Shown here: piece by piece, positions 9,123 through 59,227 of the stretch | Position numbering within the stretch: the first letter of the stretch is position 1 | Layout: every line of letters begins with the position of its first letter | Assembly (NCBI RefSeq): GCF_039535475.1 | Contig: NZ_BAAAXG010000009.1 | Span: 32,119-96,118 of the forward strand | DNA from: Streptomyces showdoensis | GTDB taxonomy: Bacteria; Actinomycetota; Actinomycetes; Streptomycetales; Streptomycetaceae | Reading direction: 5' to 3' | DNA length: 64,000 nt | Notes under the pieces: model-generated | Databases searched by the model: none | What the model was told of the DNA's origin: nothing | Seen by the model: only the letters and a program-made list of their open reading frames with translations | Position numbers and translations under genes: made by a program

Positions 9123-9162
9123 TACCCCATATTCTATTGTCAAGACAATAGAATATGGGGTA
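9123..9162 (-). promoter_or_regulatory. Dyad A: operator/promoter of the RapZ-like gene
   Basis: The core is CCATATTCTATTG, a 6-base spacer, and the exact inverted copy (9127-9158); the match extends to 17-bp arms (9123-9139 and 9146-9162). On the minus strand TTGTCT, 18 bases and TAGTGT form a plausible promoter whose -35 and spacer lie inside the dyad. It is one of four copies in the window. Confidence 0.7.
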
Positions 9163-9175
9163 GCTGGTTCGAGGG

Positions 9176-11515
9176 TCAGGCGGCCTCCTCGGCGGCCTCC
9201 GGCCGCGGGCCGAGAGCCACCTTCGAGGTCTTCCCTTCCTTGATCCGGTGGATCTTCCCCGCCTTCTCCAGCTTGTTGAGGACGTTCGCGAAGGTGGACT
9301 CCGAGACCCCACAGGCGGCCTGAAGCTGGCCCCGCTCCACGTAGTCGACGTCGCCAGGGTCGATGTCGTCGCCGACGTCGACCATGTCCACGTACATCGG
9401 GTCGGACTCATCGCGGAGGGCAGCCAGCACCTTCTCCTCCGAAGTGAGCTCCTTGGCCTTCGGGAGGTCGACACCAGGGAACGAGGTCCCGGCCTCGCCG
9501 GTAGCGCCTTCGCCGTCCTTCTCCTCGAACCCGGGGATCGGCGTGCGGGCCAGCTCCTCCATGTACGCCTCGTCGCCCCACCAGGGGACGTCGACCGGCG
9601 CGAGGATGTTCTCCGGCCGGATGTGATCAGTGGCGTCCTCAAGGGTGTCGATGCGCATCATCCCGGCACGGCCGCCGGGGGCAGCGACGTATCCGAGGCC
9701 GAAGGTGCGGCGCGGGTCCGACTCCTCCATGGTCGGGTCGTACACCAGCGCGTCGTCCTCCTCCACCCACACCGGCGGGATCAGGGAGGGGTCGATTCCC
9801 TCGAAGCCAGGGGGGAGGTCGCCGAGGTTCACCTGGTCGCTGTCGGTGCGCAGGATGATCCAGGTGCCGCCGGCGATGAGGTTGGCGCGGATGGCCTGCT
9901 CGCCGCCGAGCTGGTCGAGGTTGACGGTCTGGTTGATCAGGACCCAGGGCATGCCCAGGGAGCGGGTGAGGGAGGCGCCGTCCTTGACGATCTTGATGGC
10001 TTCCTTGCGGTTCGGCGCGCCGGGGGCGAGCATTTGGGCGGCCTCGTCCAGGATCGTGGCGCAGTACGGCCGCATCGCGGACGGCTCGAAGTTCTTCAGC
10101 TCCAGACGGGCGGCCTCTTCGATTCGGTGCTGCAGGACCCACCAGGACAGCCGCATGGCGCCCAGGGCGCCCTCCTTCGTAAGGCCGCTGTAGGCGGCCA
10201 TCTTCGGGATTGCCGGGTTGCTGGCGCCCTTGGGGTCGCCGTAGATCTGGGACATCTTGTTGGCGTGGTACGCCAGGCTGATCATCTGGCCCGTGCCGCC
10301 CTTGCCGGAGCCGGTGGTGCCAGCGATCACGACGTGGAGGGCGCCCAGCTTCGGGTCGAACAGCTGGATCTTCGCCGGGAAGCCGGAGACGATCTTGCCG
10401 ATGTTGACCCAGCCGCCCGGGGTGGCCTTGAGCGAGTCCAGGCCCTGGAAGTCGTGGCCGGCCTCCAGGGGGTTGTGGTCCATGACGCGGATGATCGCGC
10501 GCCGGGGGTCGCGCCGGCCCGGCTCGTAGGAGACGAGGTCGATGGACCGGCGCAGCGCGCCGGCGAGCTCGCCGAGGTTGACGACGCGGGGCAGCGCGTC
10601 CAGGTCGTCGTCGGCGACGACGCGCGCCACCTGGCCGCCGGTGTTCTCGTCGTGGCCGACCTCTTCCAGGTGGGTCTTCGGGAGGACCCGTGCGCGGACT
10701 CGCTTCCAGGCGCCTTGGAGGGTGGAGGGGTCGAGCTCCGCGCGCTGGGTGTACCAGACGGTGATGAAGACCTCGCCGGAGTGCGCGCCTACCTTCATGT
10801 CGATGTCGTCGACCGTGCGGCCGAAGAGGGAGGAGACGGTGTCCTTCGCGACGTTCACGGAGTCGCCGAGGGCGGCGGTGATCCGGCCTTCCCAGCGGTC
10901 GGTGTAGATCACGACATCGGAGAGCACCTGGTTCTTGTGCCGGCCGTTCTTCGGGTCGCTGATCACGTGCCCCCAGGCCGCGATCATCTTGTCGGCCATG
11001 GACACGGCGGCCGGGGCGCCGGTGTTGGCCGGGGCGGCCTGGACCGCCTGCTGGGCCTGCGTCTGCTCCACCTCGACCTTTCGGCGGCCGAAGACGCGGC
11101 GCAGGCGCCAGCCGGTGAAGACGACCGCGGCCCACCAGCCCAGCGACAGGATCCCGGGGATGGAGAGCGGCTCCAGGGCGCCGGCCAGCAGGGCGTCGGT
11201 CGCCTCGGCGCCGCCCAGCTGCCCCAGGGCGAGGCCCATGCCGGTGGTGATCGTGGAGATTCCCATGGTGTCGCGGTGCGCCCGCGCGATGTCGATCCCG
11301 GGGAGCTGGTTCGCCCAGCGGCCGAGGCGGTTCATGTAGTTGGCGCCGGCGAACGTCGCTCCTGCCACGAAGCCGATCCCGGCGTAGGCCGCGGCGTTCG
11401 GGTCCAGGAACGGGGCCAGGATGCCCACCCCGACGGGCAGGAGGACCTGGAGCGCTGCGGCGGCGCGCTCCGCCGGCTCCGCGTTCGGCACGGTCTTGGT
11501 GATGGTGGTGGACAT
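9176..11515 (-). CDS. traB: TraB-type FtsK/SpoIIIE DNA translocase (conjugal transfer)
   Basis: 779 residues; the single translocase that moves double-stranded DNA between mycelial cells in Streptomyces conjugation. Order: membrane segments in the first 135 residues, a helical stalk, then an FtsK-type ATPase with Walker A GTTGSGKGG (399-407) and Walker B ATILDE (486-491), and a C-terminal winged-helix domain (about 700-765, QLQAACGVSESTFANVLNKL) that in TraB reads short clt repeats. It is the last gene of an approximately 11 kb operon of transfer and spread-like genes. No tandem clt 8-mer array was found nearby. Confidence 0.88.
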   Translation of the reverse strand: MSTTITKTVPNAEPAERAAAALQVLLPVGVGILAPFLDPNAAAYAGIGFVAGATFAGANYMNRLGRWANQLPGIDIARAHRDTMGISTITTGMGLALGQLGGAEATDALLAGALEPLSIPGILSLGWWAAVVFTGWRLRRVFGRRKVEVEQTQAQQAVQAAPANTGAPAAVSMADKMIAAWGHVISDPKNGRHKNQVLSDVVIYTDRWEGRITAALGDSVNVAKDTVSSLFGRTVDDIDMKVGAHSGEVFITVWYTQRAELDPSTLQGAWKRVRARVLPKTHLEEVGHDENTGGQVARVVADDDLDALPRVVNLGELAGALRRSIDLVSYEPGRRDPRRAIIRVMDHNPLEAGHDFQGLDSLKATPGGWVNIGKIVSGFPAKIQLFDPKLGALHVVIAGTTGSGKGGTGQMISLAYHANKMSQIYGDPKGASNPAIPKMAAYSGLTKEGALGAMRLSWWVLQHRIEEAARLELKNFEPSAMRPYCATILDEAAQMLAPGAPNRKEAIKIVKDGASLTRSLGMPWVLINQTVNLDQLGGEQAIRANLIAGGTWIILRTDSDQVNLGDLPPGFEGIDPSLIPPVWVEEDDALVYDPTMEESDPRRTFGLGYVAAPGGRAGMMRIDTLEDATDHIRPENILAPVDVPWWGDEAYMEELARTPIPGFEEKDGEGATGEAGTSFPGVDLPKAKELTSEEKVLAALRDESDPMYVDMVDVGDDIDPGDVDYVERGQLQAACGVSESTFANVLNKLEKAGKIHRIKEGKTSKVALGPRPEAAEEAA

Positions 11516-11627
11516 CAGGCGGGACTCTCCTGTCTGGGAACGGGGTGACGTGCGAGGAGCGCGGCCGGCCGCTGGGAACGCGATCCCCGGGGGGCGGCCG
11601 CGCGTCGGTAGGGGTGGTGCGGTGGTG

Positions 11628-12008
11628 CTACTCCTGCTCGAACCAGTCGCGTGAGACCTTCTCCAGGTCCGTCACGTCCGACCGGTCGAAGGCCTCCTGG
11701 AACCCGGCGTGGGTGGTGCGGGCCTGGTCCCCGGCGGCCTTCGCGGCCTTCGCGGTGTCGGCCGTCTTCGACGCGTAGTCGATCGCGCCGTCCGACACCC
11801 CGCGGATGATCCTCGCCAGCTCCTGGCACTCCGCCAGGGAGTCGCGGTCCACGGTCTTGGCACCCAGCGCGTCCGCGTCGGAGGCGGTGTCGTCGGCCAG
11901 GTCCTTGATGCGGTCCGCGGCCTGCTTGACGCCCTCCGCGTTGCGGGCCAGGGCCCTCTCCTTGGCCTCGGTCTTGCGGACGAGGGCCTTGAACGTCAGC
12001 TCTGCCAT
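11628..12008 (-). CDS. Transfer-operon protein, helical, unknown function
   Basis: 126 residues, almost entirely Ala/Asp/Lys-rich helix (coiled-coil-like from about residue 10 to 110), with no membrane segment. It lies immediately upstream of traB in the transfer operon. I recognise no family; Streptomyces plasmids commonly have small spread (Spd) proteins at this place. ATG is preceded by GGGAGTACC. Confidence 0.55.
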   Translation of the reverse strand: MAELTFKALVRKTEAKERALARNAEGVKQAADRIKDLADDTASDADALGAKTVDRDSLAECQELARIIRGVSDGAIDYASKTADTAKAAKAAGDQARTTHAGFQEAFDRSDVTDLEKVSRDWFEQE

Positions 12009-12029
12009 GATCGGTACTCCCGTCCGGTC

Positions 12030-13808: not shown

Positions 13809-13811
13809 CTC

Positions 13812-29938: not shown

Positions 29939-30628
29939 CTACGGCGCCGGGGTGTAGTGGACGACCGAGTCGTCACACGGGCCGTCGGCGTACACGCTGA
30001 GGGCGTCGATCTCGCTCTGGTCCGCGGACAGGCCCCAGCGGCTCTTGCCCGCGGTCCACTCCTCGATGTACCGGCAGATCGCCTCCGGGGCCGGCGGCAT
30101 CCACTGCGCCGGGTCCTGGTCTGCCTTCGACCGGTTCGACCGGGCGGTCACCGCCACCAGCGAGCTGGCCGCGCCCTGGTCGTTGGCGTAGGCCTCGCGC
30201 CGCGCGGCGGTCCAGGCGCTCGCACCGGAGTCCCAGGCCTCGGCGAGCGGGATCACGTGGTCGATGTCGAGCTTGGCCGGGTCGGTGACCTCCTGGCCGT
30301 CGTAGTAGCTCAACCAGCGGCCGCCGGTCAGCTTGCAGCCGGCCCCGACCGTCGGCGACTCGATCGCCTCCGCGAGGAGGACCTCGTTGCGGGTGTTGCA
30401 GCCGTCGGCCGGATCCAGGCCGGCGTTCCAGTGCTTGAACTTGGTCCGCTCGTAGCCGTCTCGGGACTCGGCGGCGACGGGGATCTGCTTGATCGCTTCG
30501 GCAAGTGGCAGCACCACGGCGGCCCCGGGCGCCTGGGGCGCGGCGAGCGCGGTGTGCGGGACGGCGAGCGGGGCGAGGGCGAGGGAGAGCGCGGCGAGGC
30601 CGCGGGCCATGTTCTTGATCACGAACAC
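29939..30628 (-). CDS. Secreted HNH nuclease (DUF1524/GmrSD C-terminal-like)
   Basis: 229 residues with a signal peptide ending near ALAAPQ. The catalytic region LDIDHVIPLAEAWDSGASAW, with later SNRSKADQDPAQW and a CRYIEEW segment, is the HNH form of secreted DUF1524 proteins in Streptomyces. Cys residues can pair outside the cell. It would cut extracellular DNA. The start could be GTG at 30628 or ATG at 30610. It lies 135 bp upstream of the protease gene on the same strand. Confidence 0.75.
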   Translation of the reverse strand: MFVIKNMARGLAALSLALAPLAVPHTALAAPQAPGAAVVLPLAEAIKQIPVAAESRDGYERTKFKHWNAGLDPADGCNTRNEVLLAEAIESPTVGAGCKLTGGRWLSYYDGQEVTDPAKLDIDHVIPLAEAWDSGASAWTAARREAYANDQGAASSLVAVTARSNRSKADQDPAQWMPPAPEAICRYIEEWTAGKSRWGLSADQSEIDALSVYADGPCDDSVVHYTPAP

Positions 30629-30734
30629 GTGGATAGCGCCCTGGCCTGCCGTTTGTCCGCCGATCAGCCGAAGTCTGGTCCAGGCGGGCGAAGTGGTTCA
30701 CCGGAGAAACGTCCCGCTGGCTCCCCCGCAGCGC

Positions 30735-31409
30735 CTAGGACGCCAGCACCCCGGCAGGGTCCCGCGAGACCCCGTCCTCGTGCGGCACATCCGCCATCAG
30801 CTTCCAGGGCTTGTGCCCCTCTGCCTCGCATCCGACCCACAGTCGGAAGTCCTTCGGCAGGAACTCCGCCCTCCACTGAGCGGTGTTCCCGTCGCCCCCG
30901 TAGAGCCGGTGCGGGAAGGTGGGGGTGACCGAGAACCGCATCTCATCGCCCGGTTCCACGGAGAACGGCGTGGCCGTCCGCCCAGTGTTGTCCTCCGGCG
31001 TGCGGCTGGTGAAGCGGTAGGGCCCCCAGATCGTCGCCTTGACCTCCTCGAGGGGCAGCCCACCACCGAGGGCCGGCGCGGTGCTGCGGTCCCTGTCGTC
31101 GCGGATGGTCAACGACACGACGCTCAGCTTCCCGAGGGTGGTCGGCCCCTCGTACGCCACCACCAGCTCCAGCATGCCGCGCTCCTGCGTCAGCCTGCAG
31201 ACGATGCGCGGCGTCAGTTCCTTGTGCCAGCGGTCCCGTTCGATCTGGGCCACGGCCTCTGCGGTCTGCCGCGCCAGCTCCGCAGTCTGGTTCGCCACCT
31301 TGGAGTTGTCGTCGGCGGCATCGGCGGCCTTCATGGCGCTGTACGCGGCCCAGCCGCTGAACGCGGCGGCGACGGCGGCGATTCCGCCCTCAACTATGTC
31401 CATAGGCAT
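30735..31409 (-). CDS. Membrane-anchored protein with coiled stalk, unknown
   Basis: 224 residues. One N-terminal membrane helix (IAAVAAAFSGWAAYSAM), a charged coiled coil (DDNSKVANQTAELARQTAEA), then a beta-sandwich-like domain (RIVCRLTQERGMLELVVAYEG, SVVSLTIRDDRD). This is the shape of an inner-membrane sensor or anchored cytosolic domain found widely in actinomycetes. ATG at 31409 is preferred, but ATG at 31469 is possible. A strong hairpin separates it from the small upstream gene. Confidence 0.5.
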   Translation of the reverse strand: MPMDIVEGGIAAVAAAFSGWAAYSAMKAADAADDNSKVANQTAELARQTAEAVAQIERDRWHKELTPRIVCRLTQERGMLELVVAYEGPTTLGKLSVVSLTIRDDRDRSTAPALGGGLPLEEVKATIWGPYRFTSRTPEDNTGRTATPFSVEPGDEMRFSVTPTFPHRLYGGDGNTAQWRAEFLPKDFRLWVGCEAEGHKPWKLMADVPHEDGVSRDPAGVLAS

Positions 31410-31478
31410 ATTCAACGCCGCCGGACCCTCGCGCGGGGCCGGTACGCCCCAGTAGATCGTGGCCTCCATATGCTGCGC

Positions 31479-31511
31479 GTGGGCCCTCCCGCTTACCCCG
31501 GGAGGGCCCAC
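31479..31511 (-). terminator. Strong hairpin between 31531 gene and 30735 gene
   Basis: A perfect 12-bp stem (GTGGGCCCTCCC and complement) with a 9-base loop, 19 bp past the stop of the small cysteine-rich gene. It probably terminates or attenuates transcripts from dyad B. Confidence 0.7.
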
Positions 31512-31530
31512 TCATTTGCTTCGTCCCTTC

Positions 31531-31692
31531 CTACGCGCAGCCATCTCCGTAGGCGCAGTCGATGCACTGGGTTCCGTCGCACTTCCGGCAGAGGTAGTCG
31601 ATCGGGATCGACTTGCCGGTGTCCTCATCGAGGACGGCGTCACGGATGTATCCGCGGTCGCACGAGCACATCTCCACACAGACCTTGGCCAT
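31531..31692 (-). CDS. 53-residue cysteine-rich (zinc-ribbon-like) protein
   Basis: 53 residues with eight Cys: VCVEMCSC near the start, then LCRKCDG, QCIDCAYG and a last GDGCA. The CxxC pairs suggest one or two zinc sites. It is too short for routine gene calling but has a ribosome site (GGGGAGCCCC) and is the first gene under dyad B, 74 bp from it. Small zinc proteins are frequent first genes of actinophage early operons. Function unknown. Confidence 0.65.
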   Translation of the reverse strand: MAKVCVEMCSCDRGYIRDAVLDEDTGKSIPIDYLCRKCDGTQCIDCAYGDGCA

Positions 31693-31765: not shown

Positions 31766-31797
31766 CCATAACCTATGGCCTACACAATAGATTATGG
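31766..31797 (-). promoter_or_regulatory. Dyad B: operator/promoter before the cysteine-rich gene
   Basis: CCATAACCTATGG, six bases (CCTACA) and CAATAGATTATGG. On the minus strand TTGTGT, 17 bases and TTAGTC form the promoter. On the plus strand an extended -10-like TGGATATGAT follows the right arm (31795-31804), so the site could also influence the operon starting at 31890. Confidence 0.7.
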
Positions 31798-45249: not shown

Positions 45250-45259
45250 CCCAGCTCCC

Positions 45260-45898: not shown

Positions 45899-45910
45899 CT
45901 CCTCCCGGCC

Positions 45911-48221: not shown

Positions 48222-48274
48222 GACCGCACGATAGCGACACGGGCCGCTCCCCTCGCCCATACCGCGCGACCCTG

Positions 48275-48841: not shown

Positions 48842-48894
48842 GTCCCTCCCAGGACGCGATGTGACGAGTAGTTACCGGAGCCAGGCTGGTTGGG

Positions 48895-48918
48895 GTATCC
48901 GCCCGGGGATCCGGATAC
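48895..48918. promoter_or_regulatory. Inverted repeat in the 48842-48948 gap
   Basis: GTATCCG and CGGATAC separated by 10 bases. The gap between two minus-strand genes is about 100 bp, so this may be an operator for the gene at 48841. Confidence 0.4.
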
Positions 48919-48948
48919 TTCGATCAAGAAACGGTCACTGCGTGTTAC

Positions 48949-50122: not shown

Positions 50123-50124
50123 GC

Positions 50125-51357
50125 TCAGATCTCCTTCATGGTGGTGGACGGCACGCGGGTGCGGCCGCGGTTGTAGTGCGGGACCGGGTCCACACCGGGG
50201 ACGAAGCCGTAGTCGTCACCGGTCATCTCCTGGCCGTCGCGGACACGGTGGTAGCGGGTCTCGTCGGTCGGGCCGTAGGGGCCGTCGTTCTCGACGCTGA
50301 CGCCGGCGGCACGCAGCTGGGAGTCGGTCATGTCCTTGAGCTGGATGTGCTTCCCAGCGGTGACGTCGTACGCCTGCGCCTGCGGTACGCCCCGGAAGGT
50401 GTCGTCGAGCTCATTGAGCAGTCCAGTGAACTGCTCCTGCCACTGGATCGGCATCGACTGCAGGAGGGCGCGGGGGACGACGAGGTAGTTGGCGTACGAG
50501 AGACCGAAGTAGGTGTGGATGTCGATGCGGTCGCGCGCCGTGGTGTCGGTGTCATGGTTGGTGGCCGGGACCAGCCCGGCAACGGGGGTGCTGGCGAGCT
50601 TGGCCTCGGCAGTGATCGCCCGGTTGTGCATCTGGTTGTAGACCGACCACAGCACGGGGCGCTCGGTGCCTTCGGCGTACCCCTGGACTTCCAGCATCAG
50701 CTCGTTGTTGACCTGATCGGCCCGGCGCAGGCTGGCCTCGTGCTTCTCGCGGAGCTGCACGATCTCGGCCTCCAGCTCGGCCACGCGCTGCTCGTCGGGG
50801 GCCGGCTGTCCGGCGGCGGTCAGCGGGCCGAAGAAGCGCTGTACGTCCCGGCGCAGCATGGGTGCCATGTCGCCAGCCGAAGGCAGCATCACCCGGTCAC
50901 CGTCGTGCGTCTCGTCGGTTAGGTGCCACACCTCGGCGTCACGGTCGGTGTACTCCGGCCAGGGCAGCGGGAGGCCACTGTTCGTGGATTCGCTGATCTC
51001 GGCGACGATCTCGTCGGGGATGGTGGCTGCGCCGAGGCGGAGCGCGCGGGCCATGGGGTGCTCGGCGGCCGGCTGTCCGGCGGCCTGGCGGGCGGCGTCC
51101 CGGACCGTGGCCGCGAGCTCCTGCGCCGCGTCCTGGTCACCGCCTGCAGCGCGGGCAGCGAGGGGCAGGTCGTTCCAGACGTCGCCCAGCCACTCCATGG
51201 CCCACTCGTCGCCGCTCTTGCTGGCCCGGTCCATGTCGTCGCGGATGCGGCGGAGGGCGTCGACGAGGGGCTGCTGGAGGGCGCGGTACTCCTGGATGGA
51301 GGCCATGAGGGCGGAGATGGTCTCGGCGCGGGTGGCGGTCTGGTCGGTCATGGTCAT
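50125..51357 (-). CDS. Phage-type protein with C-terminal conserved domain, unknown
   Basis: 410 residues. Helical start (ISALMASIQEYRALQQPLVDAL), a coiled coil (QRVAELEAEIVQLREKHEA), and a C-terminal region (TYFGLSYANYLVVPRALLQ, WQEQFTGLLNELDDTF) that I associate with actinophage early proteins. No enzyme motif. Two ATGs lie near the start. It is 2 bp from the exonuclease gene. Confidence 0.5.
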   Translation of the reverse strand: MTMTDQTATRAETISALMASIQEYRALQQPLVDALRRIRDDMDRASKSGDEWAMEWLGDVWNDLPLAARAAGGDQDAAQELAATVRDAARQAAGQPAAEHPMARALRLGAATIPDEIVAEISESTNSGLPLPWPEYTDRDAEVWHLTDETHDGDRVMLPSAGDMAPMLRRDVQRFFGPLTAAGQPAPDEQRVAELEAEIVQLREKHEASLRRADQVNNELMLEVQGYAEGTERPVLWSVYNQMHNRAITAEAKLASTPVAGLVPATNHDTDTTARDRIDIHTYFGLSYANYLVVPRALLQSMPIQWQEQFTGLLNELDDTFRGVPQAQAYDVTAGKHIQLKDMTDSQLRAAGVSVENDGPYGPTDETRYHRVRDGQEMTGDDYGFVPGVDPVPHYNRGRTRVPSTTMKEI

Positions 51358-51386
51358 GCTCCTGGTGGTGTGGAAGGCTGGTGGGG

Positions 51387-51415
51387 GGCCGCCCCGCCTA
51401 GCCCGCGGGGCGGCC
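51387..51415 (-). other. Intergenic stem-loop
   Basis: Perfect 11-bp stem (GGCCGCCCCGC and complement) with a 7-base loop between genes ending at 51431 and starting at 51357. Confidence 0.6.
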
Positions 51416-51430
51416 GGCTTGCGTGCGGGG

Positions 51431-51877
51431 TCAGGCGGCGGGGTGGTCGGGGCAGTAGTCGCGGCCCTCCACATCCGTCCAGCCGTCGGCAGCGAGCGTC
51501 CGGCGGTGGTTCGCGTCCCGCTCCTCGCGGGTCGCGGACATGCCGGCGGTGATCGCGTAGCCGGTGCAGTCCTCGTGGTCGCAGGTGGTCTGGATGGTGG
51601 CGGTGCGGTTGCTGCGCATGGCTGCTCCTGTGTGTGCGGGTAGTGGAACCGGGCGGTCAGACGGCGGGGCGGAGTACGAGCCCCAGGACGATGGCCGAGG
51701 CGCCTGGGTGGGCGGAGCCCAGGTGTGCCAGCGGGCCGACGCCTTCCACTGCTGGAAGTGCGCGCGCTGGTCGGTGCCGCACCAGCGGCAGCCGTACGGG
51801 GTCGGCGGCTGACCGTCGGGGTAGACGACCGCGCCTCGGCGGAGGCCTGTGGCGGGGTCCCGGGTGACGAGGGACAT
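51431..51877 (-). CDS. Apparent fusion of two small zinc-binding proteins
   Basis: 148 residues. The first half (MSLVTRDPATGLRRG, YGCRWCGTDQRAHFQQW) looks like a complete small Streptomyces phage protein. The second half starts at an internal ATG (51619) with its own AGGAGC site and has CDHEDCTGYA and YCPDHPAA. The two are joined in frame by a low-complexity stretch (SSWGSYSAPPSD). The internal ribosome site suggests that the halves were once separate genes, joined by a small indel; a 62-residue product from 51619 is likely as well. Confidence 0.5.
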   Translation of the reverse strand: MSLVTRDPATGLRRGAVVYPDGQPPTPYGCRWCGTDQRAHFQQWKASARWHTWAPPTQAPRPSSWGSYSAPPSDRPVPLPAHTGAAMRSNRTATIQTTCDHEDCTGYAITAGMSATREERDANHRRTLAADGWTDVEGRDYCPDHPAA

Positions 51878-51897
51878 GTGGTTCTCCAAGGGGCGGT

Positions 51898-52656
51898 TCA
51901 GGTGGTGGGGATGTCGGCGATGAGGACGGTGGCGTTGTCGGCGTACGGGTTGTCCGGGCGGGCGGCGAGCGACGTCTTGACGGCGCCGTCGGCGAACTTG
52001 CGGGCGAGGCTGCGCAGGCTGGGGCCTGTGAGCAGCGGGGCGAGGTCCTGCTCGGCGTCCTCGTACGGTTCGTAGGCGCCGTCGGAGGCGAGGAGCAGCC
52101 GGACGGGGCCGGGCGGCAGGGTGTGGGTCTCGATGGGCGGGTGTCCGAAGTGCTCAGTGCACTCGCCTTCGGTGAGGGTGCTGCCGAGGTACGAGGTGAT
52201 GACGTTGCGGTTCCCGCCGCGGTGGCCGTTCTGGGGCGGCCAGACGCGGCGGAGGTTGTGGTCGCGGGTGAGGCGGATGGCGGGGCCGTCGGGGGTGAGG
52301 GTGTAGGCGCGGGAGTCGCCGCACCAGGCGAGGGAGAGGCGCGCGCCGGGCGCGGTGACGGCGACGACGGCGGCGGCCGCGGGCATCCCGTCGCGGGTGA
52401 AAGGGTCGTTCCTGTCCGGCTCGGCGGCGTAGCGCAGGTACTCGGTCCGCAGGCCGTGCTCGGCGTCGCCGGTGCGGGCGGCGGCGCGGGCGAGGCTCCG
52501 GGCGGCCGTGCGGGTCCAGTCCCGGATGGTGGGCGTGGAGCCGATGCCGTCGAGGAGTGCGTATGCGGTGGTGCCGTCGGGGGCGGTGAACACGGCGGTG
52601 GCGTCGCACTGGTGGGAGCGCAGCCCGATGTTCTGGGCGGTCGCGTACGTGGCCAT
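51898..52656 (-). CDS. PP2C-type serine/threonine phosphatase
   Basis: 252 residues. PP2C metal motifs are visible in order: AYALLDGIGS, SLAWCGDSRAY, LTRDHNLRR, LLLASDGAYE, YADNATVLIA. The metal-binding Asp residues are conserved; the usual DGHGG is DGIGS. It removes phosphate from Ser/Thr proteins and may counter host kinases such as Pkn proteins. No kinase is in the window. ATG follows GGAGAAAC. It lies between structured gaps and the zinc gene. Confidence 0.85.
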   Translation of the reverse strand: MATYATAQNIGLRSHQCDATAVFTAPDGTTAYALLDGIGSTPTIRDWTRTAARSLARAAARTGDAEHGLRTEYLRYAAEPDRNDPFTRDGMPAAAAVVAVTAPGARLSLAWCGDSRAYTLTPDGPAIRLTRDHNLRRVWPPQNGHRGGNRNVITSYLGSTLTEGECTEHFGHPPIETHTLPPGPVRLLLASDGAYEPYEDAEQDLAPLLTGPSLRSLARKFADGAVKTSLAARPDNPYADNATVLIADIPTT

Positions 52657-52692
52657 GCTGTTTCTCCGCTCAGTCGAGGTCGGCGGGGGTGG

Positions 52693-52730
52693 GCCGCGCG
52701 CCCCGGAAGGGGGAGTACGGGGCGCGCGGC
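52693..52730 (-). terminator. Hairpin 1 of three between 52894 and 52656 genes
   Basis: Perfect 12-bp stem (GCCGCGCGCCCC and complement) with a 14-base loop. It is the last of three successive GC hairpins on the minus-strand transcript after the small gene. Confidence 0.6.
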
Positions 52731-52819
52731 CGGGGTTGGGCGGCACTCGTCGGAAGCGGGGTCGGTGCGCGGAAGGGGGAGTCGCGCGGGCCCGCGATAT
52801 CCGGGTGCCTGCCCGGGGT

Positions 52820-52854
52820 CCGCCCTCCCCGGGTGGGGGGAGTGGGGAGGGCGG
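52820..52854 (-). terminator. Hairpin 2 of three
   Basis: Perfect 11-bp stem (CCGCCCTCCCC and complement) with a 13-base loop. Confidence 0.6.
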
Positions 52855-52855
52855 T

Positions 52856-52882
52856 CGGCTCCCCGTTGCGGGCGGGGAGCCG
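52856..52882 (-). terminator. Hairpin 3 of three, directly after the 52894 stop
   Basis: Perfect 9-bp stem (CGGCTCCCC and complement), 9-base loop, 11 bp past the stop of the small gene. Confidence 0.6.
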
Positions 52883-52893
52883 GTCTGGGGCGG

Positions 52894-53073
52894 CTAGCGG
52901 ACGCGGACGGTGTAGTCGCGGGCGTTGTAGCCGAAGTCGGCCCACTGGGAGGCGTGCTCGGGGGCGACGGTCTCGATCAGGTGGGTGGTGATGGTGTCGA
53001 CCTGGTCGGTGGGGACGTCGCGGTGGGTGGTGACGGTGTAGCCGTTGGGCTCGATGAGGGTGACGGTGGCCAT
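52894..53073 (-). CDS. 59-residue protein, first gene after dyad C
   Basis: 59 residues, beta-rich then helical (ATVTLIEPNGYTVTTHRDV; VDTITTHLIETVAPEH) ending DYTVRVR. No domain known. It has a GGAAGGGGAA site and is the first gene behind dyad C; three hairpins follow it, so it is mostly transcribed alone. Confidence 0.55.
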   Translation of the reverse strand: MATVTLIEPNGYTVTTHRDVPTDQVDTITTHLIETVAPEHASQWADFGYNARDYTVRVR

Positions 53074-53137
53074 GTGGGTTCCCCTTCCATCCCTGGGCTG
53101 TTGCCCGTTGGGTCGTTGTCGGCTCCGCCAGCCTAAT

Positions 53138-53169
53138 CCATAACCTATTGCTCGCACAATAGGTTATGA
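53138..53169 (-). promoter_or_regulatory. Dyad C: operator/promoter
   Basis: CCATAACCTATTG, CTCGCA, CAATAGGTTATGA. Minus-strand TTGTGC, 17 bases and TTAGGC make the promoter. The upstream flank CGTTGTCGGCTCC is shared with dyad D. Confidence 0.7.
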
Positions 53170-53183
53170 AGTTCGAGGGGAAA

Positions 53184-53212
53184 AGAAGGGCCCGGCCCCA
53201 CCCGGGACCGGG
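53184..53212 (-). terminator. Terminator after ssb
   Basis: GGCCCGG stem pairs with CCGGGCC around a GC loop; on the minus strand it exits into CTTCTTTT. It separates the ssb-containing operon from dyad C. Confidence 0.75.
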
Positions 53213-53230
53213 CCACACACCAACACCCCG

Positions 53231-53776
53231 TCAGAACGGCGGCTCGTCCACTCCCCCGCCACCCCACGACCCGCCACCACCGGACCCAGCACCGGCGCCC
53301 CACGAACCGCCCCCCGCCCCACCGCCCGTACCCGGCGTACCCGACGTCCACGGATCCTGCACCGACTCCGCCCCCTGCTCCCGCCGCGCCGACTCGTACG
53401 CCCCACGCCCCGCGCCGGCCTTCGTCACCCTCGCCGTCGCCGACCGCAGCGACGGCCCCACCTCCTCCACCTCCAGCTCGAACACCGTCCGCTTCACACC
53501 CTCCCGGTCCTCGTACGACCGCTGCCGAAGCCGACCCACCACGAGCACCCGCATCCCCTTCTGCAAGGACTCCGCCACGTGCTCCGCCGCCTGCCGCCAC
53601 ACCGTGCACGGCAGGAACAGCGACTCGCCGTCCCGCCACTCGTTCGTCTGCCGGTCGAACGTCCTCGGCGTCGACGCAATCCGGAACTTCGCCACCGCCG
53701 CCCCCGCCGGCGTGAACCGCAGCTCGGGATCATCCACCAGGTTCCCGACCACCGTCATCACGGTCTCTCCAGCCAT
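53231..53776 (-). CDS. ssb: Single-stranded DNA-binding protein
   Basis: 181 residues. An OB fold ([53 protein letters not shown]) and a Gly-rich flexible tail that ends VDEPPF, the acidic tip by which SSB recruits replication proteins. It differs from typical host SSBs in details, so it is the element's own copy. It ends the 59121-to-53231 operon. Confidence 0.93.
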
Positions 53777-53802
53777 GCGTCCTGCTCCTCTCTCCTCGCC
53801 GC

Positions 53803-54360
53803 TCAGGCGACGTTCCCGATCTGTCCCACCGGCTGCCTCGGAACAGGCCGGCCTTCCGCGAGTGCACGCTCCTTCGCGCGCGTCCACGCCTTCTGGACGG
53901 CCGCGACAGTCATCCCGAGGCGCTCCGCGACGTCCTCGTACGGCATGCCGCGCCGGATCCCGACGTCCACGGCGAACGCGCGCTCCGGCGAAGACAGCCA
54001 CACCGAGTCCCCCGGGGTCAGAGCCCGGTCCACCGCCACCACGTCAATGCCATGGCCGCGCGGCGCGGCGTTCGGCACGGCATCCCGCACCCTGCGCGCC
54101 GACCGCGACGTCGATACCGGCACGTGGTCGCCGTACTCGTCGAAGTCCACCCACCTCAGCGCGTCCAGCACAGGCCTCTCCGGGTCAGCCAGTGCGGCAA
54201 CCACGACGGCCAGGGCCTCTAGCTCGTGCCGGGTGAGCCCCTGGAGCCGGGACCGGATGTCCTGCGCCGACCCCTCGTGCACGTCGACGATCAGGCCGGC
54301 GGCCTCCGGCAGCATCGCCTGCGCCATGTCGCCGCGTGCCTCCGCGCTGAGCTCGCCCAT
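53803..54360 (-). CDS. Sigma-like helix-turn-helix protein
   Basis: 185 residues. The C-terminus ([26 protein letters not shown]) is a sigma70 region-4-type helix pair; the N-terminal two thirds are helical, with no region 2 seen. It may modify host transcription. Its ATG overlaps the WhiB stop by a single base, so translation is coupled. Confidence 0.6.
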
Positions 54361-55034
54361 CACGCCGCCACCTCCAGCGCCGCCACCATCGACTTGTTCA
54401 CGAAGGTGATGGCCTTCTCGGCGCAGGAGACGCTGACACCCAGGTACGCCGACACGTCGAACCGGTTCCCGCCCGCCTTCAGCACCCGCGCGATCTCCGG
54501 CCCGTGTGCATCCGCGACCCGCTGCCACTTCGGGGTGAGCTCACCGTCCGCCCGCAGCTGCGCCCGAGTGCCGTCCAGGTCCAGCCACCACAGCGCCAGA
54601 CGCGTCGTCACCAGGTGCTGGGGAGTCGTGCCGCCGATCGCCCTGGTGATCTCGTCCAGGGTGAGGCGCTGCTCGTGAAGATGGCGCAGCTTCCTCATCC
54701 AGTCCCAGCCGATCAGCTGCCCGGCCTTCGTGACGTCGGGCCGGGCGCCGTGCAGACGCTCCTCCCACACCAGGGCGAGGCGCTGCGGGGCGGTCAGTCC
54801 GGCGGCCATGCCCCACCGGTCCTGGCTCCAGGCCTCCTCGGCCGCGGTGCCGCTCAGGCACTGCATCAGCACGGGGCAGCGAACGCACACCTGCCGGGCG
54901 GTCTTCTGCCCGTCCACGGAGCCGTCGTAGAACGCGTCCCGCCCGACGCTGGCGCAGGCAGCGCTGCCCCGCCAGGTGTCGCCAGTCCGGGCAGAAACGG
55001 CCGGTGTTATGGGACGGCGGGTGAGCGTGATCAT
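54360..55034 (-). CDS. WhiB-like iron-sulfur regulator with extra C-terminal domain
   Basis: 224 residues. The WhiB core has Cys27, Cys50, Cys53 and Cys59 (AACASVG; VCVRCPVLMQC) and the turn WGMAAG (usual G(V/I)WGG changed). Wbl proteins bind a 4Fe-4S cluster and sigma factor. Phage versions such as WhiB of TM4 interfere with host WhiB2. The additional C-terminal 110 residues (LTLDEITRAIGGTTPQHL) include a second helix-turn-helix. Overlaps RusA-like and sigma-like genes. Confidence 0.85.
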   Translation of the reverse strand: MITLTRRPITPAVSARTGDTWRGSAACASVGRDAFYDGSVDGQKTARQVCVRCPVLMQCLSGTAAEEAWSQDRWGMAAGLTAPQRLALVWEERLHGARPDVTKAGQLIGWDWMRKLRHLHEQRLTLDEITRAIGGTTPQHLVTTRLALWWLDLDGTRAQLRADGELTPKWQRVADAHGPEIARVLKAGGNRFDVSAYLGVSVSCAEKAITFVNKSMVAALEVAA

Positions 55035-55561
55035 GAGGGGTCTCCGAGGGTGTAGAGGCGGATGACGGCGCCGGGCGCGGGGAGGGCTTCGGGGTGTTCG
55101 CCGGGGTAGACCTTGCGTACGGTGAGGTCGACGATCTGGGAGTCGTCCTTGATGACGCCGGACTCGGACAGGGAGTCGAGGACGGCGCGGGCGTGGTGGT
55201 CGACGTCGGTGCTGTACCGGGTGATGGGCCAGGACCGGCGCCGCTTGGGGGCGTTGGCCGGCTTGGGCACGGTGATGGTGATCTGCGCGCCGGTGGGGAT
55301 GTTGGCGTAGAGGCCGTGGGCGTCCTTGGCGGTGCGGCAGATCACGCAGGTGCCGGTGCGGCGGGGGTCGAGGTACCCGTGGACGCCGGTCTTCTTGCGG
55401 ACGGCTGTGATGATGGCGGCCCGCCAGGGCTTGAGGGTCTTCTCGTTGGTGTGGCGGGCTCCGCGGCCCTTGCCGAGGAAGGAGATCTGTCCTTGTCCGG
55501 CGGGCGTGCCCTGGACGGTGATGACGACGGCCTGGTGCCAGGTGTCGGTGGGGGTGGTCAC
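55031..55561 (-). CDS. RusA-like Holliday junction resolvase
   Basis: 176 residues. RusA motifs: VQGTPAGQGQISFLGKGRG, then STDVDHHARAVLDSL and SGVIKDDSQIVDL with the catalytic Asp residues. It cuts branched DNA formed in replication and recombination. A Cys pair (TCVICRTAKD) is inserted in the middle. GTG start; ATGA overlap with the WhiB gene downstream. Confidence 0.8.
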   Translation of the reverse strand: MTTPTDTWHQAVVITVQGTPAGQGQISFLGKGRGARHTNEKTLKPWRAAIITAVRKKTGVHGYLDPRRTGTCVICRTAKDAHGLYANIPTGAQITITVPKPANAPKRRRSWPITRYSTDVDHHARAVLDSLSESGVIKDDSQIVDLTVRKVYPGEHPEALPAPGAVIRLYTLGDPS

Positions 55562-55893
55562 GTGGCGTCCGCCTTCCTGGCGGCAGCGCGCTCGTCGTAG
55601 TCGGCGATCCACTGGTCGGGGTCGTGGCCGAGGGCCTGGGCGGTGCGGTAGGCGGGGCCGCCGATGTCGCCGACGGTGAAGATGCTGTCGAGGTGGTCGG
55701 CGAGGCTGTTGGCGATGTCGGGGGCGTGTCGGCGGAGCATCTCCATGGCCATGGCGGCGATAAGGCCGTTGATGGCGCTGTGGCTGTGGGCGCCGTGGGG
55801 CCAGGTGATGAGGAGGCGGTAGCGGTCGGGGGTGCTGACGCTGGTGTTGTGGTTGCCTCGGTTGTTCGGACGGGGTCCTCGGCGTCGGGCCAT
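55558..55893 (-). CDS. Small unknown early protein
   Basis: 111 residues. Basic start (ARRRGPRPNNRGNH), then helices (INGLIAAMAMEMLRRHAPD). No domain recognised. Overlaps both neighbours. Confidence 0.5.
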   Translation of the reverse strand: MARRRGPRPNNRGNHNTSVSTPDRYRLLITWPHGAHSHSAINGLIAAMAMEMLRRHAPDIANSLADHLDSIFTVGDIGGPAYRTAQALGHDPDQWIADYDERAAARKADAT

Positions 55894-56885
55894 CACGCAC
55901 CGACCGGGTAGTCGTCGTGGATGCGGCCGTCGAGGTCGCGGCCGGCGGCCTTCTTGCCGGCGCGCTTCATCTCGACGCGGTGTCCGAGGTCGTCGACGGG
56001 GTCGCCGAAGGCGATGTTGCCCTTCTCGCGGGGGCCGCCGATGACGAGGTAGCCGGTGGGCGCGTAGTCGCCCCACTGCTTGAACAGGAACGGGACGTGG
56101 GCGGCGGCGCACTGGTCGCGGAGGGTGCGGAACCAGTCGGGGTGCGCGGGGCGGGCGCCGTGCCCGGACTCGCCCCCGGCGACGACCCAGTCGACGCCGG
56201 GGCGGGAGGCGGGGTGGCAGGAGCAGGAGCAGCGGCCCCAGACGTGCCTGTCGTGGTAGTCGACGGGGCCGAGCGGGGCGCAGCGGACGCAGGCGGGGAG
56301 CTGGGGGCGCTTGAGCCACGGGTGGAGGTCGACGGGGCCGAGGAGGGGTTCGGCGGAGATCCAGCGGACGGCGGCGGGGGTGCCGAGGAGGACGGGGACG
56401 CGGATGTCCGCCCACTGCTGGTTCTCGACAGACACGCCGAGCCACAGGTTGGGCAGGGGCCAGGCCCAGTCGGCGTCGGGGAGACCCTTGCCGCGGGCGA
56501 GCGTACACACCTGGGCGGTGAAGTTCGGGTCGGTGAACAGGGACCGCATGCGGGCGTGCCGCTTGGTGAGGAGCTGGAAGGTGTGGCGGCGGGCGGCGGC
56601 CATGACGGCAACGATGTTCGCGATCCAGGCCTCGTCGACGTCCTGGTGGAACAGGTCCGACATGGAGTTGACGAAGACCTTCGCCGGGCGCCGCCAGGAG
56701 AGCGGGGCGTTGACCTTCTCGTCGCGGATGCGGACGTCGAATCCGTGGGGGAAAGCGGCGGTGCCGCGGAAGCGCTCGGCGATGGTCTTGGCGTAGCAGT
56801 GGTCGCAGCCGGCCGAGATCTGGGTGCAGCCCGTCGTCGGGTTCCAGGTGCGGTCGGTCCACTCGATGGTGGTGGTGTCAGCCAT
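55893..56885 (-). CDS. DUF5131 (phage Gp37/Gp68) family protein
   Basis: 330 residues. The signature start TIEWTDRTWNPTTGC with CTQISAGCDHCYAKTIAERF, a CxxxxxxCxxC iron-sulfur-like site, VFVNSMSDLFHQD and FQLLTKRH define the family. Related to radical SAM-like proteins; its reaction is unknown. Widespread in phages. A second Cys group (ACVRCAPLG; CSCSCH) is present in the middle. Overlap of one base with the following gene. Confidence 0.85.
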   Translation of the reverse strand: MADTTTIEWTDRTWNPTTGCTQISAGCDHCYAKTIAERFRGTAAFPHGFDVRIRDEKVNAPLSWRRPAKVFVNSMSDLFHQDVDEAWIANIVAVMAAARRHTFQLLTKRHARMRSLFTDPNFTAQVCTLARGKGLPDADWAWPLPNLWLGVSVENQQWADIRVPVLLGTPAAVRWISAEPLLGPVDLHPWLKRPQLPACVRCAPLGPVDYHDRHVWGRCSCSCHPASRPGVDWVVAGGESGHGARPAHPDWFRTLRDQCAAAHVPFLFKQWGDYAPTGYLVIGGPREKGNIAFGDPVDDLGHRVEMKRAGKKAAGRDLDGRIHDDYPVGA

Positions 56886-57354
56886 GGGAGTGCTCCTGGG
56901 CGTGGTCGGCGCGGAGGGTGGTGACGTCGAGGGGCTGGGTGTCCGCGCCGGGGCCGTGGGGGAAGGCGTCGGCGAGGGGCCGGACGGCGGGCGTCGGCTC
57001 GGGCCGTGTGGGCGGCCGGTGGGCCGAGGTGCAGGCGGCGGCGTCGGCCTGGGCGTTGCGGAGGTCGGCGAGGGTGGCGACGGGGTGCGGGTGCCGTACG
57101 CCGGCCGCGCAGGGGGTGAGTGCGGTGAGGGGGGTGCCGGGGCTGTAGGCGAGGGCGGCGCCGGTGGGGAGGATCTGGAGGAGGGAGCCGTCGGCCTGCT
57201 GCTCCCAGCCGGTGATGGTGAGGCGGGTGACTCCGGCGCGGAGGGCGGCGGTGTACGCGGCCGTCTGCGCCTCGGTGATGAACGGCCGGTGGTCGGCGGC
57301 GGGGTGGGGGCGGACGGGTATCGGCGCGGGGGCGGCGTGGGTGCTGGTGGTCAC
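56878..57354 (-). CDS. Unknown early protein
   Basis: 158 residues. A compact domain (TEAQTAAYTAALRAGVTRLTI; LLQILPTGAALAYSPGTPL) then a Pro/Thr-rich tail. GTG start. No family recognised. Confidence 0.5.
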   Translation of the reverse strand: MTTSTHAAPAPIPVRPHPAADHRPFITEAQTAAYTAALRAGVTRLTITGWEQQADGSLLQILPTGAALAYSPGTPLTALTPCAAGVRHPHPVATLADLRNAQADAAACTSAHRPPTRPEPTPAVRPLADAFPHGPGADTQPLDVTTLRADHAQEHSHG

Positions 57355-57479
57355 GGCTGGTCTCCGTCCGGAGGGTCCTGGGGCGGGAGAGTGCGGGTGC
57401 CGAGGCCGTGCTGGGAGAGCGCGACCAGGGCGGCGGCGATGAGGCCGAGGACGATGGCGATGGCGGCGGGCCCGGTCAC
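57351..57479 (-). CDS. 42-residue membrane peptide
   Basis: 42 residues: one membrane helix (PAAIAIVLGLIAAALVALSQH) then a Pro/Asp-rich tail. GTG start overlapping the previous stop; its own stop overlaps the next GTG. Under the length limit of routine calling but linked on both sides. Confidence 0.5.
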   Translation of the reverse strand: MTGPAAIAIVLGLIAAALVALSQHGLGTRTLPPQDPPDGDQP

Positions 57480-57883
57480 GAGCGCTCCGCGTGGCGGGTA
57501 CGCCGGATCCGGATGTCGTCCTGCTCTCCGCCGAGGAGCCAGTGGGCGACCTTGACGCGGTCCTCGCGGTCGAAGAGCAGCGCCACGGGCTGTGCGTTGT
57601 CAGCGATGGCGCCGATGGTGAGGACCGGGTCCTCCTCGGGCGCGGGCTCCATGGCGATGTCGAAGCGGGACACGATGAGCGGTTCGGGACCGGTCGCGTG
57701 GGGTTCGATCGGGCCGGCGTCGATGTCGATGCCCCGCTCGCGGAACCAGCGGCAGAGGGTGTCGACGGCGTCGACGGCATTCCATGTCCCGTCCTCCTCC
57801 TCGTCGGCCTGGATGAGGTTGAACAGGGTGACGATCGCTTCGCCTTCGGGCGTGGTCGGGTCGATGCGCAGGTTGTGCGCCAT
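57476..57883 (-). CDS. Unknown early protein
   Basis: 135 residues, acidic. Helical start (EGEAIVTLFNLIQADEEED) and a strand-rich end (VLTIGAIADNAQPVALLFDRED). No domain known. In the operon between small membrane and DUF5131 genes. Confidence 0.5.
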   Translation of the reverse strand: MAHNLRIDPTTPEGEAIVTLFNLIQADEEEDGTWNAVDAVDTLCRWFRERGIDIDAGPIEPHATGPEPLIVSRFDIAMEPAPEEDPVLTIGAIADNAQPVALLFDREDRVKVAHWLLGGEQDDIRIRRTRHAERS

Positions 57884-57905
57884 GGCTGTGTCCTCGGGGC
57901 GTGGG

Positions 57906-58172
57906 CTACTGGGGGCGGGGGCGCTCGGTGTGGGCGTTCTCGGTCTCGACGGCGACGTGACCCTGCTCCTCGCGGCGGATCTCCAAGACGCGGTCGGCGT
58001 AGCCGAGGGCGTAGCCGGTGGAGGGGTGGAGGTCGGCGATGACGGCGGCGCGGTGGGCGAGTTCGGTGAGGGTGGCGCCCTGGGCGTGCTCGTCGTAGGC
58101 GTCGGCGCGGCCGGCGTAGAGGTCGGGGTCGTGGCCGCCGGTGATGCTCGTGGTGAGGGTCATGAGGCTCAT
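57906..58172 (-). CDS. Small unknown early protein
   Basis: 88 residues. LYAGRADAYDEHAQGATLTEL and STGYALGYADRVLEIRRE, helical. Seen often in Streptomyces phages and plasmids; function not known. Confidence 0.5.
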   Translation of the reverse strand: MSLMTLTTSITGGHDPDLYAGRADAYDEHAQGATLTELAHRAAVIADLHPSTGYALGYADRVLEIRREEQGHVAVETENAHTERPRPQ

Positions 58173-58195
58173 GGCGGAACTCCGTTCTGGGCGGG

Positions 58196-58227
58196 CGCCG
58201 GGGGCGGGGGCGGGCGGGCCCCCGGCG
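58196..58227 (-). other. Intergenic stem-loop
   Basis: 10-bp perfect stem (CGCCGGGGGC and complement), 12-base loop, between genes ending at 58244 and starting at 58172. Confidence 0.55.
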
Positions 58228-58243
58228 TGCGGTGGACGGGTGG

Positions 58244-58678
58244 TCAGGCGGCGGGGCGCAGGTCGGGGATGTCGGTGCACGCGTCAGCGGTCTGCGCGGC
58301 CCGGCCCAGGACGCCGATGGCGTCGGAGGTGTTGGGGCAGCGGTCAAGGAAGAAGTCGGGTTCGAGGACCCAGAAGGCGAGGTGCTCGATGTGGTCGTCG
58401 ATGCCAGTGCCCTGGTCGTGCGAGGGGTAGGTCGGCAGGACGGCGGAGACCCAGCGGATGGCGTCCGTGACCAACTCGTTCGCGTCGATGAGCTGCCGGG
58501 CGATCTTGGGGGCGTTGATGAAGCAGTCCGGGGTGGTGCCGGTGGCGGCGCGGTAGATGGCGGCGACGATGTCGAGGCGTCCATCGGGGTCGGCGAAGTT
58601 GCCGAGGTCGGAGTCGAGGAGGCCGTGCTCGTGCAGGACCTGCTGGGCGGCGCGGAGGAGGCGGGCGGTCTCGGACAT
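58244..58678 (-). CDS. DUF6197-like early protein
   Basis: 144 residues. LLRAAQQVLHEHGLLDSDLG and RLDIVAAIYRAATGTTPDCF resemble the N-terminal half of DUF6197; the end (LIDANELVTDAIRWVSAVLP) agrees less. If so, there is one in the transfer operon and one in the early operon. Function unknown. Confidence 0.45.
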   Translation of the reverse strand: MSETARLLRAAQQVLHEHGLLDSDLGNFADPDGRLDIVAAIYRAATGTTPDCFINAPKIARQLIDANELVTDAIRWVSAVLPTYPSHDQGTGIDDHIEHLAFWVLEPDFFLDRCPNTSDAIGVLGRAAQTADACTDIPDLRPAA

Positions 58679-58718
58679 GGGTGTCTCCCGGTGCGTTCGG
58701 GGTGGGTCTGTGGTTGGT

Positions 58719-58767
58719 CCGGTCCGGCCGCCAGGGAGCGGGTTCCTCGACCTGGCGGCCGGACCGG
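58719..58767 (-). other. Long intergenic stem-loop
   Basis: Perfect 17-bp stem (CCGGTCCGGCCGCCAGG and complement) with a 15-base loop, between genes ending at 58777 and starting at 58678. The longest of the intergenic hairpins. Confidence 0.65.
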
Positions 58768-58776
58768 TGCTGGGGG

Positions 58777-59121
58777 TCAGTCCTCGTCGGGGACGGGGTG
58801 CTCGTCGGCGCAGCGGGCGCACTGGAGGAGCGGCAGGTTGTAGCCGTTGGAGTCCTCCACCGTGCGGAGGCCGGGGGCGGCGGTGTCGAAGAGGGCGCCG
58901 CAGTGGCAGTCGGGGCAGGCGCACTTGGCGATGTCGTGGCCGCGCGGGATGTCGAGCTTGGCGAGGCTGGCGGCCGTCTCCATGAGGATGCGGAACTCGG
59001 CGTTGTCGACGGTGTTGTCGGCCTGCTCCAGGGCGTGGTCGAGGAGGGCCTTGGTGTGGGGGCCGAGCTCGCCGTAGTCGGCGGTCTGGCTGGTCGGGCG
59101 GGCGGGGCTTATGACGCTCAT
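58777..59121 (-). CDS. Zinc-binding-like protein, first gene after dyad D
   Basis: 114 residues. Helical start (LGPHTKALLDHALEQADNTV), then CACPDCHCGALFD with LLQCARCADEH, which makes a zinc ribbon likely. First gene of the operon that contains SSB, RusA, WhiB and DUF5131. Confidence 0.55.
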   Translation of the reverse strand: MSVISPARPTSQTADYGELGPHTKALLDHALEQADNTVDNAEFRILMETAASLAKLDIPRGHDIAKCACPDCHCGALFDTAAPGLRTVEDSNGYNLPLLQCARCADEHPVPDED

Positions 59122-59195
59122 CGCTGCGCTCCTGAACTGGGAACTCCCACCTGCCCGTTGCTGGGCTGGTGCGTTGTCGGCTCCACCACCATAAG

Positions 59196-59227
59196 CCATA
59201 ACCTATGGCACGAGCAATAGGTTATGG
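59196..59227 (-). promoter_or_regulatory. Dyad D: operator/promoter of the early operon
   Basis: CCATAACCTATGG, CACGAG, CAATAGGTTATGG. Minus-strand TTGCTC, 17 bases and TTATGG. Upstream flank CGTTGTCGGCTCC as at dyad C. It heads the largest early operon, about 6 kb. Confidence 0.75.

Follow-up and report, generated by a model that had tools for sequence, protein, structure and literature searches.

A dispersed dyad regulon and its probable repressor, a predicted tandem ribbon-helix-helix protein, in Streptomyces phage-plasmids

Background

The operators of phage P1 are short and asymmetric. The stoperators of phages L5 and Bxb1 are likewise short and asymmetric, lie mostly away from promoters and are bound by a repressor of the helix-turn-helix (HTH) type. 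Among ribbon-helix-helix (RHH) proteins, P22 Arc is a repressor with one RHH per chain that is not known to have such a dispersed regulon, and TraY of the F plasmid carries tandem RHH units in one chain and works at oriT in conjugation. Here we analysed 64,000 nucleotides of Streptomyces showdoensis (the window; positions 32119-96118 of the 96,118-base contig C9), in which an earlier note had proposed four dispersed dyads over separate operons. Contig C9 is a pZL12-type phage-plasmid, and the probable repressor of the dyads is an unannotated protein, f2, encoded on C9 outside the window.

The locus resembles P1 in that a phage-plasmid would use one repressor with operators at several separate operons, its own included. 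It differs in its symmetric dyads and its candidate repressor with tandem RHH units, C1 being a different, larger protein. With L5 and Bxb1 it shares the plan of one phage repressor and many dispersed sites of the same lettering, the letters differing between immunity groups. However, the sites described here are symmetric dyads of about 31-33 bp that stand before genes, none of 90 lying wholly in a called gene, and are thus not stoperators. A few dispersed inverted repeats near the early genes of a phage-plasmid also recall the SopB sites of N15, but here the lettering does not follow ParB, as it would in a dispersed centromere. Identity between f2 and TraY is 11-15% in our alignments; f2 moreover has a helical part at its N-terminus that TraY lacks, and some of its relatives have four predicted units. 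Unlike Arc, f2 is predicted to combine tandem units with a dispersed regulon.

Six dyads on contig C9

The window contains four putative operator dyads, each made of 13-bp arms around a 6-bp spacer, at the places where they had been noticed before:

Site A, 9127..9158, minus strand: CCATATTCTATTG arms; TTGTCT -35-like box at 9143-9148 and TAGTGT -10-like box at 9119-9124
Site B, 31766..31797, minus strand: TTGTGT -35-like box at 31782-31787 and TAGTCT -10-like box at 31758-31763
Site C, 53138..53169, minus strand: TTGTGC -35-like box at 53154-53159 and TAGGCT -10-like box at 53130-53135, then the leader motif GCCGACAAC
Site D, 59196..59227, minus strand: TTGCTC -35-like box at 59212-59217 and TATGGT -10-like box at 59188-59193, then the leader motif GCCGACAAC

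The CCATAACCTATTG arms described in the earlier note were found at B, C and D, and site A is a variant with CCATATTCTATTG instead. A degenerate motif with up to three mismatches gave four matches in the window, against 0.00 expected from 100 dinucleotide-preserving shuffles. In the whole genome (8,497,953 bases, 29 contigs), the motif was confined to six places on contig C9, and the reversed pattern gave no match. The rest of the host genome is without a copy. A search of viral_contigs with the degenerate dyad pattern also gave no match. The two places beyond the window, which raise the count from the four copies first reported to six, lie next to f2:

Two further dyads, C9:8371-8402 and C9:8446-8477, outside the window, 75 bp apart: between a WYL-domain gene and f2
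f2, C9:7804-8292, outside the window, minus strand: unannotated 162-amino-acid protein, divergent from the WYL-domain gene

Thus, several copies of one site stand at separate transcription units and none elsewhere in the host genome, as is expected of dispersed operators. The earlier note had identified no repressor gene in the window; the candidate f2 lies outside it and adjoins two of the sites.

Each window dyad is located upstream of a minus-strand gene, as had been described, at 74, 74, 65 and 75 bp (A to D) from the nearest called one. Minus-strand TTGNNN and TANNNT boxes were present at all four sites, with 18 bp between them. The flank CGTTGTCGGCTCC common to C and D is real, but it does not belong to the operator: read on the coding strand it is GCCGACAAC, a leader motif in its own right that elements with different operators also keep. 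What holds of the first description is one regulon of dispersed sites over promoter-like boxes, which was also seen in related phage-plasmids, with its number of sites and the role of the shared flank revised.

The regulon recurs in related phage-plasmids

Window positions 50000-60000 matched 24 plasmid records, the 20 listed being 85-102 kb, as well as phage ZL12 (two records of the same phage). Relatives of f2 were identified by tblastn in 36 of 72,556 plasmid records (by name, 35 from Streptomyces and one from Kitasatospora), and in phage ZL12; among 392 Streptomyces genomes, 17 have one, its own genome counted. PLSDB classes the 36 plasmids, part of which were read as elements here, as non-mobilizable. 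In the 19 regions read, the gene order was a divergent small gene, f2 and a recombination gene, often followed by a DNA methyltransferase gene. The recombination gene was mostly annotated as ERF, Rad52, Bet, AAA or ATP-binding and was hypothetical in some cases (AAA_24 also matched). In 15 of 20 elements the divergent gene encodes a WYL-family protein; in the other five it encodes a different small protein.

We compared C9 with 19 relatives, of which 18 were taken in full and W15 (102,011 bases) up to base 100,000, calling genes with a simple codon-score caller. For each element, a matrix started from its own best junction dyad and was then refined with the hits in that element, three Markov resamples serving as control. 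Ninety sites scored above control in the 20 elements, 20 of these being the seeds counting themselves. At least two sites were present in 18 elements; W13 and W19 had the seed only. Although a fraction of 0.786 of the sequence is taken up by called genes, none of the 90 sites falls wholly within one.

The positions of the sites were conserved. A junction site stands 37-42 bp before the divergent gene in 19 of 20 elements, and 4 bp before it, by called gene start, in pZL12. Eleven elements have a second junction site, 79-87 bp before f2 in eight of them. A dyad precedes f10, the first gene of the early operon, in all 19 elements with a called f10; it exceeded the control in 17 and stayed below it in W13 and W19. 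More copies were found before small early genes (f87, f171 and f166) and others.

Whereas the sites were kept at the same promoters, their lettering differed between elements. Half-sites read CCATAACCTATTG in C9, CCATACTCCATTG in pCQ4 and approximately NNCATTCCYATTG in seven elements, and those of pZL12 and pCQ3 have CGTATTG or CGTATGG ends. An ATTG core was almost constant across elements, partly because junction dyads were chosen by that core.

The sites also show promoter-like geometry by sequence. When a dyad is read toward its gene, TTGNNN is central and TANNNT often follows 17-18 bp on. Among oriented sites, that is, those with a gene start within 105 bp, 58 of 95 had TANNNT 0-3 bp behind the dyad, compared with 79 of 11,722 random upstream positions. 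Because the -10 box often comes directly after the dyad, any protein bound there would sit over the -35 box and the spacer. The sites facing f2 were the exception, with TANNNT in only 2 of 15 and, by eye, a GAGACT- or GACACT-like box as the usual form. Moreover, the f2-proximal site was by eye the lowest-scoring accepted site in 8 of the 11 elements that have one (C9, W07, W08, W10, W11, W14, W15 and W16, but not W02, W05 and W19).

Operator lettering follows f2

The case that separates f2 from its neighbours is plasmid pCQ3. pCQ4 and the S. albidoflavus plasmid W06 have f2 proteins that are 98% identical and operators in common. pCQ3 is much like both: among its 106 called genes, 73 were matched in W06 (46 at ≥90% identity) and 82 in pCQ4 (54 at ≥90%). 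Specifically, its divergent gene is 96-97%, f11 94% and f10 96-98% identical to theirs, and f1, the gene after f2, is 99.1% identical to that of W06, with a short match only in pCQ4. In contrast, its f2 is 47.0% identical to that of W06 and 48.8% to that of pCQ4, and its operators differ from theirs at the shared junction, f10, f119 and f166 promoters.

Pairs of elements were then classed by operator distance as different (>0.25) or alike (<0.17) in the set of 20, and with cut-offs of >0.27 and <0.15 in a set of 31. The 20-element test took families with at least eight alike pairs, 48 family alignments being at hand; the 31-element test took 14 chosen families, with 465 f2 pairs. For the 11 added elements, operators were taken solely from the top dyad in front of f2 and of f10 (those of W21 are doubtful), and dyads with a core under 6 of 8 were excluded from the matrix. 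The G248 junction dyad was picked by eye, as automatic ranking put another stretch first. The far f2 relatives L133-L144 from the Streptomyces genomes, which reach at most 41% identity along most of the aligned stretch, were excluded, their junction dyads being unclear or absent. In the 20 elements, no f2 pair at ≥70% identity had different operators, and two pairs below 40% (pCQ4 and W06, each with W14) had operators at a distance of 0.17. In the 31 elements, f2 had 0 and 0 mismatched pairs, compared with 3 to 57 in total for each of the 13 other families.

Ten held-out elements, all outside the first 20, had an f2 relative at ≥60% among those 20 (L149, L152, L173, L174, L175, L176 on the contig of G315, G248, W20, W23 and W24). 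By eye, the junction dyad was of the relative's class in 10 of 10.

Other families that diverge in pCQ3, at <70% to both W06 and pCQ4, are f8, f9, f33, f34, one f35 gene and ParB, and its ParA is without a match. Most of these candidates failed the test in the 20 elements. Pairs below 40% identity with alike operators numbered 16 for ParB, 20 for ParA, 23 for f9 and 4 for f8, and pairs at ≥70% with different operators numbered 7 for f8, 13 for ParA, 18 for f34, 3 for f33 and 2 for f35.

The WYL protein was also considered as the repressor and rejected. The gene divergent to f2 matches WYL (PF13280) with 36.4 bits over residues 12-90 of 149, its sole domain match at E up to 1, and it lacks the HTH match that marks WYL transcription factors. 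It has no DNA-binding domain that we could find, is not present in all elements and gave 27 pairs at ≥70% with different operators.

Several observations weigh against f2. Relatedness alone can give such covariation. When pCQ3 is left out, f2 no longer stands apart in the family-wide correlation, so that its choice depends mainly on the pCQ3 event and the pair counts. W26, whose f2 is 49% identical to its nearest relative (W12), carries pZL12-like lettering, and W22, at 59.9% from pZL12 and thus just outside the 60% cut, has mixed lettering. W21 and L150 have no clear junction dyad, and W25, W27 and G314, with f2 at 37-40% from the nearest, have lettering of their own.

Predicted fold of f2

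The f2 protein is predicted to begin with a helical part, behind which come two RHH units (beta-alpha-alpha) in tandem, placing it in the Arc/MetJ fold by model. With E values up to 1 admitted, Pfam Arc was found in 5 of 20 f2 members (lowest E 0.0027), in a table that gives no cut-off for these, and the structural matches were moderate. Relatives of about 260 amino acids or longer (L012, L014, L018, L021, L024, L028, L150 and L152) occur beside two-unit relatives with similar operators. In L152, the sole long relative modelled, four RHH units were predicted.

A leader motif and a conserved hairpin

The leader motif lies just behind the promoters at C and D:

Leader motif GCCGACAAC, 53115-53123 and 59173-59181, minus strand
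Hairpin with loop GACGCCGACA, C9:7747-7795 (L007:7747-7795), outside the window, minus strand: between f2 and the recombinase gene

The motif occurs in early-operon leaders across elements with different operators, often followed, by eye, by a small hairpin. It is found 4 to 13 times per element, also within genes and elsewhere, and its letters are those of the hairpin loop behind f2. Eleven hairpins were aligned from sequence, ten from the f2-f1 gap and one upstream of f122. Two-sided (compensatory) changes were found in 13 of 16 stem pairs. Moreover, 87.4% of cells pair, compared with a mean of 69.8 for shuffled alignments, none of 500 reaching the observed value, and with 36-51% for slid versions. 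The exact nine letters are missing upstream of f1 in seven elements; by eye, GCCGACACC is retained in six of them, and pZL12 shows neither form. With a model made from the 11 hairpins, 98 sources yielded 22 matches at E ≤0.1, of which 11 were the model's own rows, and the genome of C9 gave a single match, at the f2-recombinase gap. Rfam, run on window positions 45000-64000, returned a single match (E 0.83), far below cut-off. The hairpin may be a terminator or attenuator that sets the repressor apart from the recombinase.

Genes behind the window sites

239-amino-acid gene behind site A, 8334..9053, minus strand: RapZ C-terminal domain (PF22740)
Genes behind site B, 29939..31692, minus strand: 53-amino-acid gene (31531-31692), 224-amino-acid gene (30735-31409) and 229-amino-acid protein with a GmrSD-C/HNH match (29939-30628)
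Genes behind site C, 51898..53073, minus strand: 59-amino-acid gene of family f87 (52894-53073) and PP2C-like phosphatase (51898-52656)
Early gene block behind site D, 53231..59121, minus strand: f10 as first gene (58777-59121), DUF6197 protein (58244-58678), DUF5131 protein (55893-56885), RusA (55031-55561), WhiB (54360-55034), sigma-70-region-4-like protein (53803-54360) and SSB open reading frame (53231-54001)
f11, 59293..59526, minus strand: 77-amino-acid protein encoded next to site D, with an HTH of MerR/excisionase type by eye
ParA (PF13614) and ParB (PF17762; family f20) genes, 61328-63603

The Pfam match agrees with the RapZ-like gene that had been named behind site A, and f10, nearest to site D, is the first gene of the SSB/RusA/WhiB early operon, as had been proposed. 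The single Pfam match of f11, to DUF1580 (E 0.0034), is below that family's cut-off. The conserved gene f16 (C9:8-685, minus strand) is cut at the contig start; the element may thus be circular or permuted, with the contig ending where the assembly broke.

Proposed circuit and alternatives

The dyads are probably (we estimate about 0.7) dispersed operators of one autoregulated repressor encoded by the element, most likely f2, in a circuit that would set lysogeny and superinfection immunity. What can be read from the sequences is that the sites exist with a promoter-like geometry, that the regulon recurs, that operators and f2 diverge together and that pCQ3 differs; from this we infer operator binding and repression by f2, and immunity. 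In this circuit, f2 would bind the 32-bp dyad, cover the -35 box and spacer, and exclude RNA polymerase at six places: both sites of the divergent WYL/f2 junction, site D at the ssb/rusA/whiB early operon, site C at the f87 operon, and sites A and B at one further operon each. It would thereby repress the early operons and itself. The weakest operator and the poor, GAGACT-like -10 box usual at the f2 promoter are as expected for a leaky, self-limiting supply of repressor. Since operators and repressor diverge together, as happens when temperate phages split into immunity groups, lysogeny and immunity to superinfection are probably set by this circuit. Between pCQ3 and pCQ4 or W06, both the ParAB set and the putative immunity determinant differ in elements otherwise much alike, which would be expected if selection favours coexistence.

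On a more tentative level, the switch could have two layers, a split reading of the operator by a single-chain tandem-RHH repressor and an RNA hairpin checkpoint on transcription beyond f2. The near-invariant second strand (NLNV) would read the invariant ATTG core and the variable first strand the variable outer arm, so that immunity groups could arise by change of one unit. The hairpin, with its invariant loop GACGCCGACA whose letters recur in the leaders of repressed early operons, would be the second checkpoint.

An unlikely but not negligible alternative is that f2 binds the dyads as a Cro-like protein that turns off early genes in lytic growth, lysogeny being kept by another, unseen protein. 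The recombinase gene (AAA_24/ERF/Rad52/Bet) and the frequent DNA methyltransferase gene after f2 would suit such a role. However, the f2-proximal operator that is weakest in 8 of 11 elements and the conserved hairpin before the next gene are both compatible with f2 being supplied separately while the element is a plasmid, and none of the others in the 14-family set passes the pair test.

It is considerably less probable that the repressor is f11 or another protein covarying with the operators (f12, f13 or f16). With mean distance removed, operator distance in the 20 elements correlated with protein distance most strongly for f11 (partial r 0.58; area under the curve 0.97), followed by f16 (0.54), f2 (0.50), f13 (0.43) and the gene at the WYL position (0.40). 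In pCQ3, however, f11 (94%), f12 (92-95%) and f13 (94-95%) are nearly those of pCQ4 and W06, and f16 is 91.5-94.5% identical over 236 and 183 of 250 residues, whereas the operators differ at shared promoters. Additionally, pairs at ≥70% with different operators in the 31 elements numbered 8 for f11, 5 for f12, 2 for f13 and 3 for f16.

That the dyads form a dispersed centromere bound by the element's ParB (f20), as in the phage-plasmid N15, is highly improbable. The element does encode ParA and ParB, and pCQ3 differs in both from pCQ4 and W06. Nevertheless, ParB pairs below 40% identity had alike dyads in 16 cases (20 elements) and, by the stricter cut-offs, in 14 (31 elements), and ParB pairs at ≥70% had different dyads in 5 (31 elements). 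The partial r was 0.02 for ParB and -0.01 for ParA, and the sites stand before genes with promoter-like boxes. Palindromes of different lettering occur in pCQ4, W06, W14 and W16, some near parAB.

These palindromes near parAB, GTGATTGCGGGGCAATCAC and AATATTGCGNCGCAATATT, lie at 75107-77517 in pCQ4, 42592-43581 in W06, 86622 and 87021 in W14, and 44631 in W16, and are possible parS sites. Unlike ParA/ParB alleles were also seen among otherwise alike elements, pCQ3 and pCQ4 included.

Finally, sites of a host regulator, or repeats without regulatory meaning, might show the same architecture in all elements looked at, but a host genome without further copy, lettering that varies between elements within one host genus and a constant position relative to promoter-like boxes make this reading hardly tenable.

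Significance

This analysis puts forward a candidate repressor, together with its operators, for an entire family of phage-plasmids of Streptomyces; the operator lettering sorts the elements into likely immunity groups. pCQ3, set against pCQ4 and W06, serves as a natural experiment. If the proposal is true, the evolution of immunity specificity could be studied well on such a tandem-RHH repressor, whose dispersed operators are symmetric.

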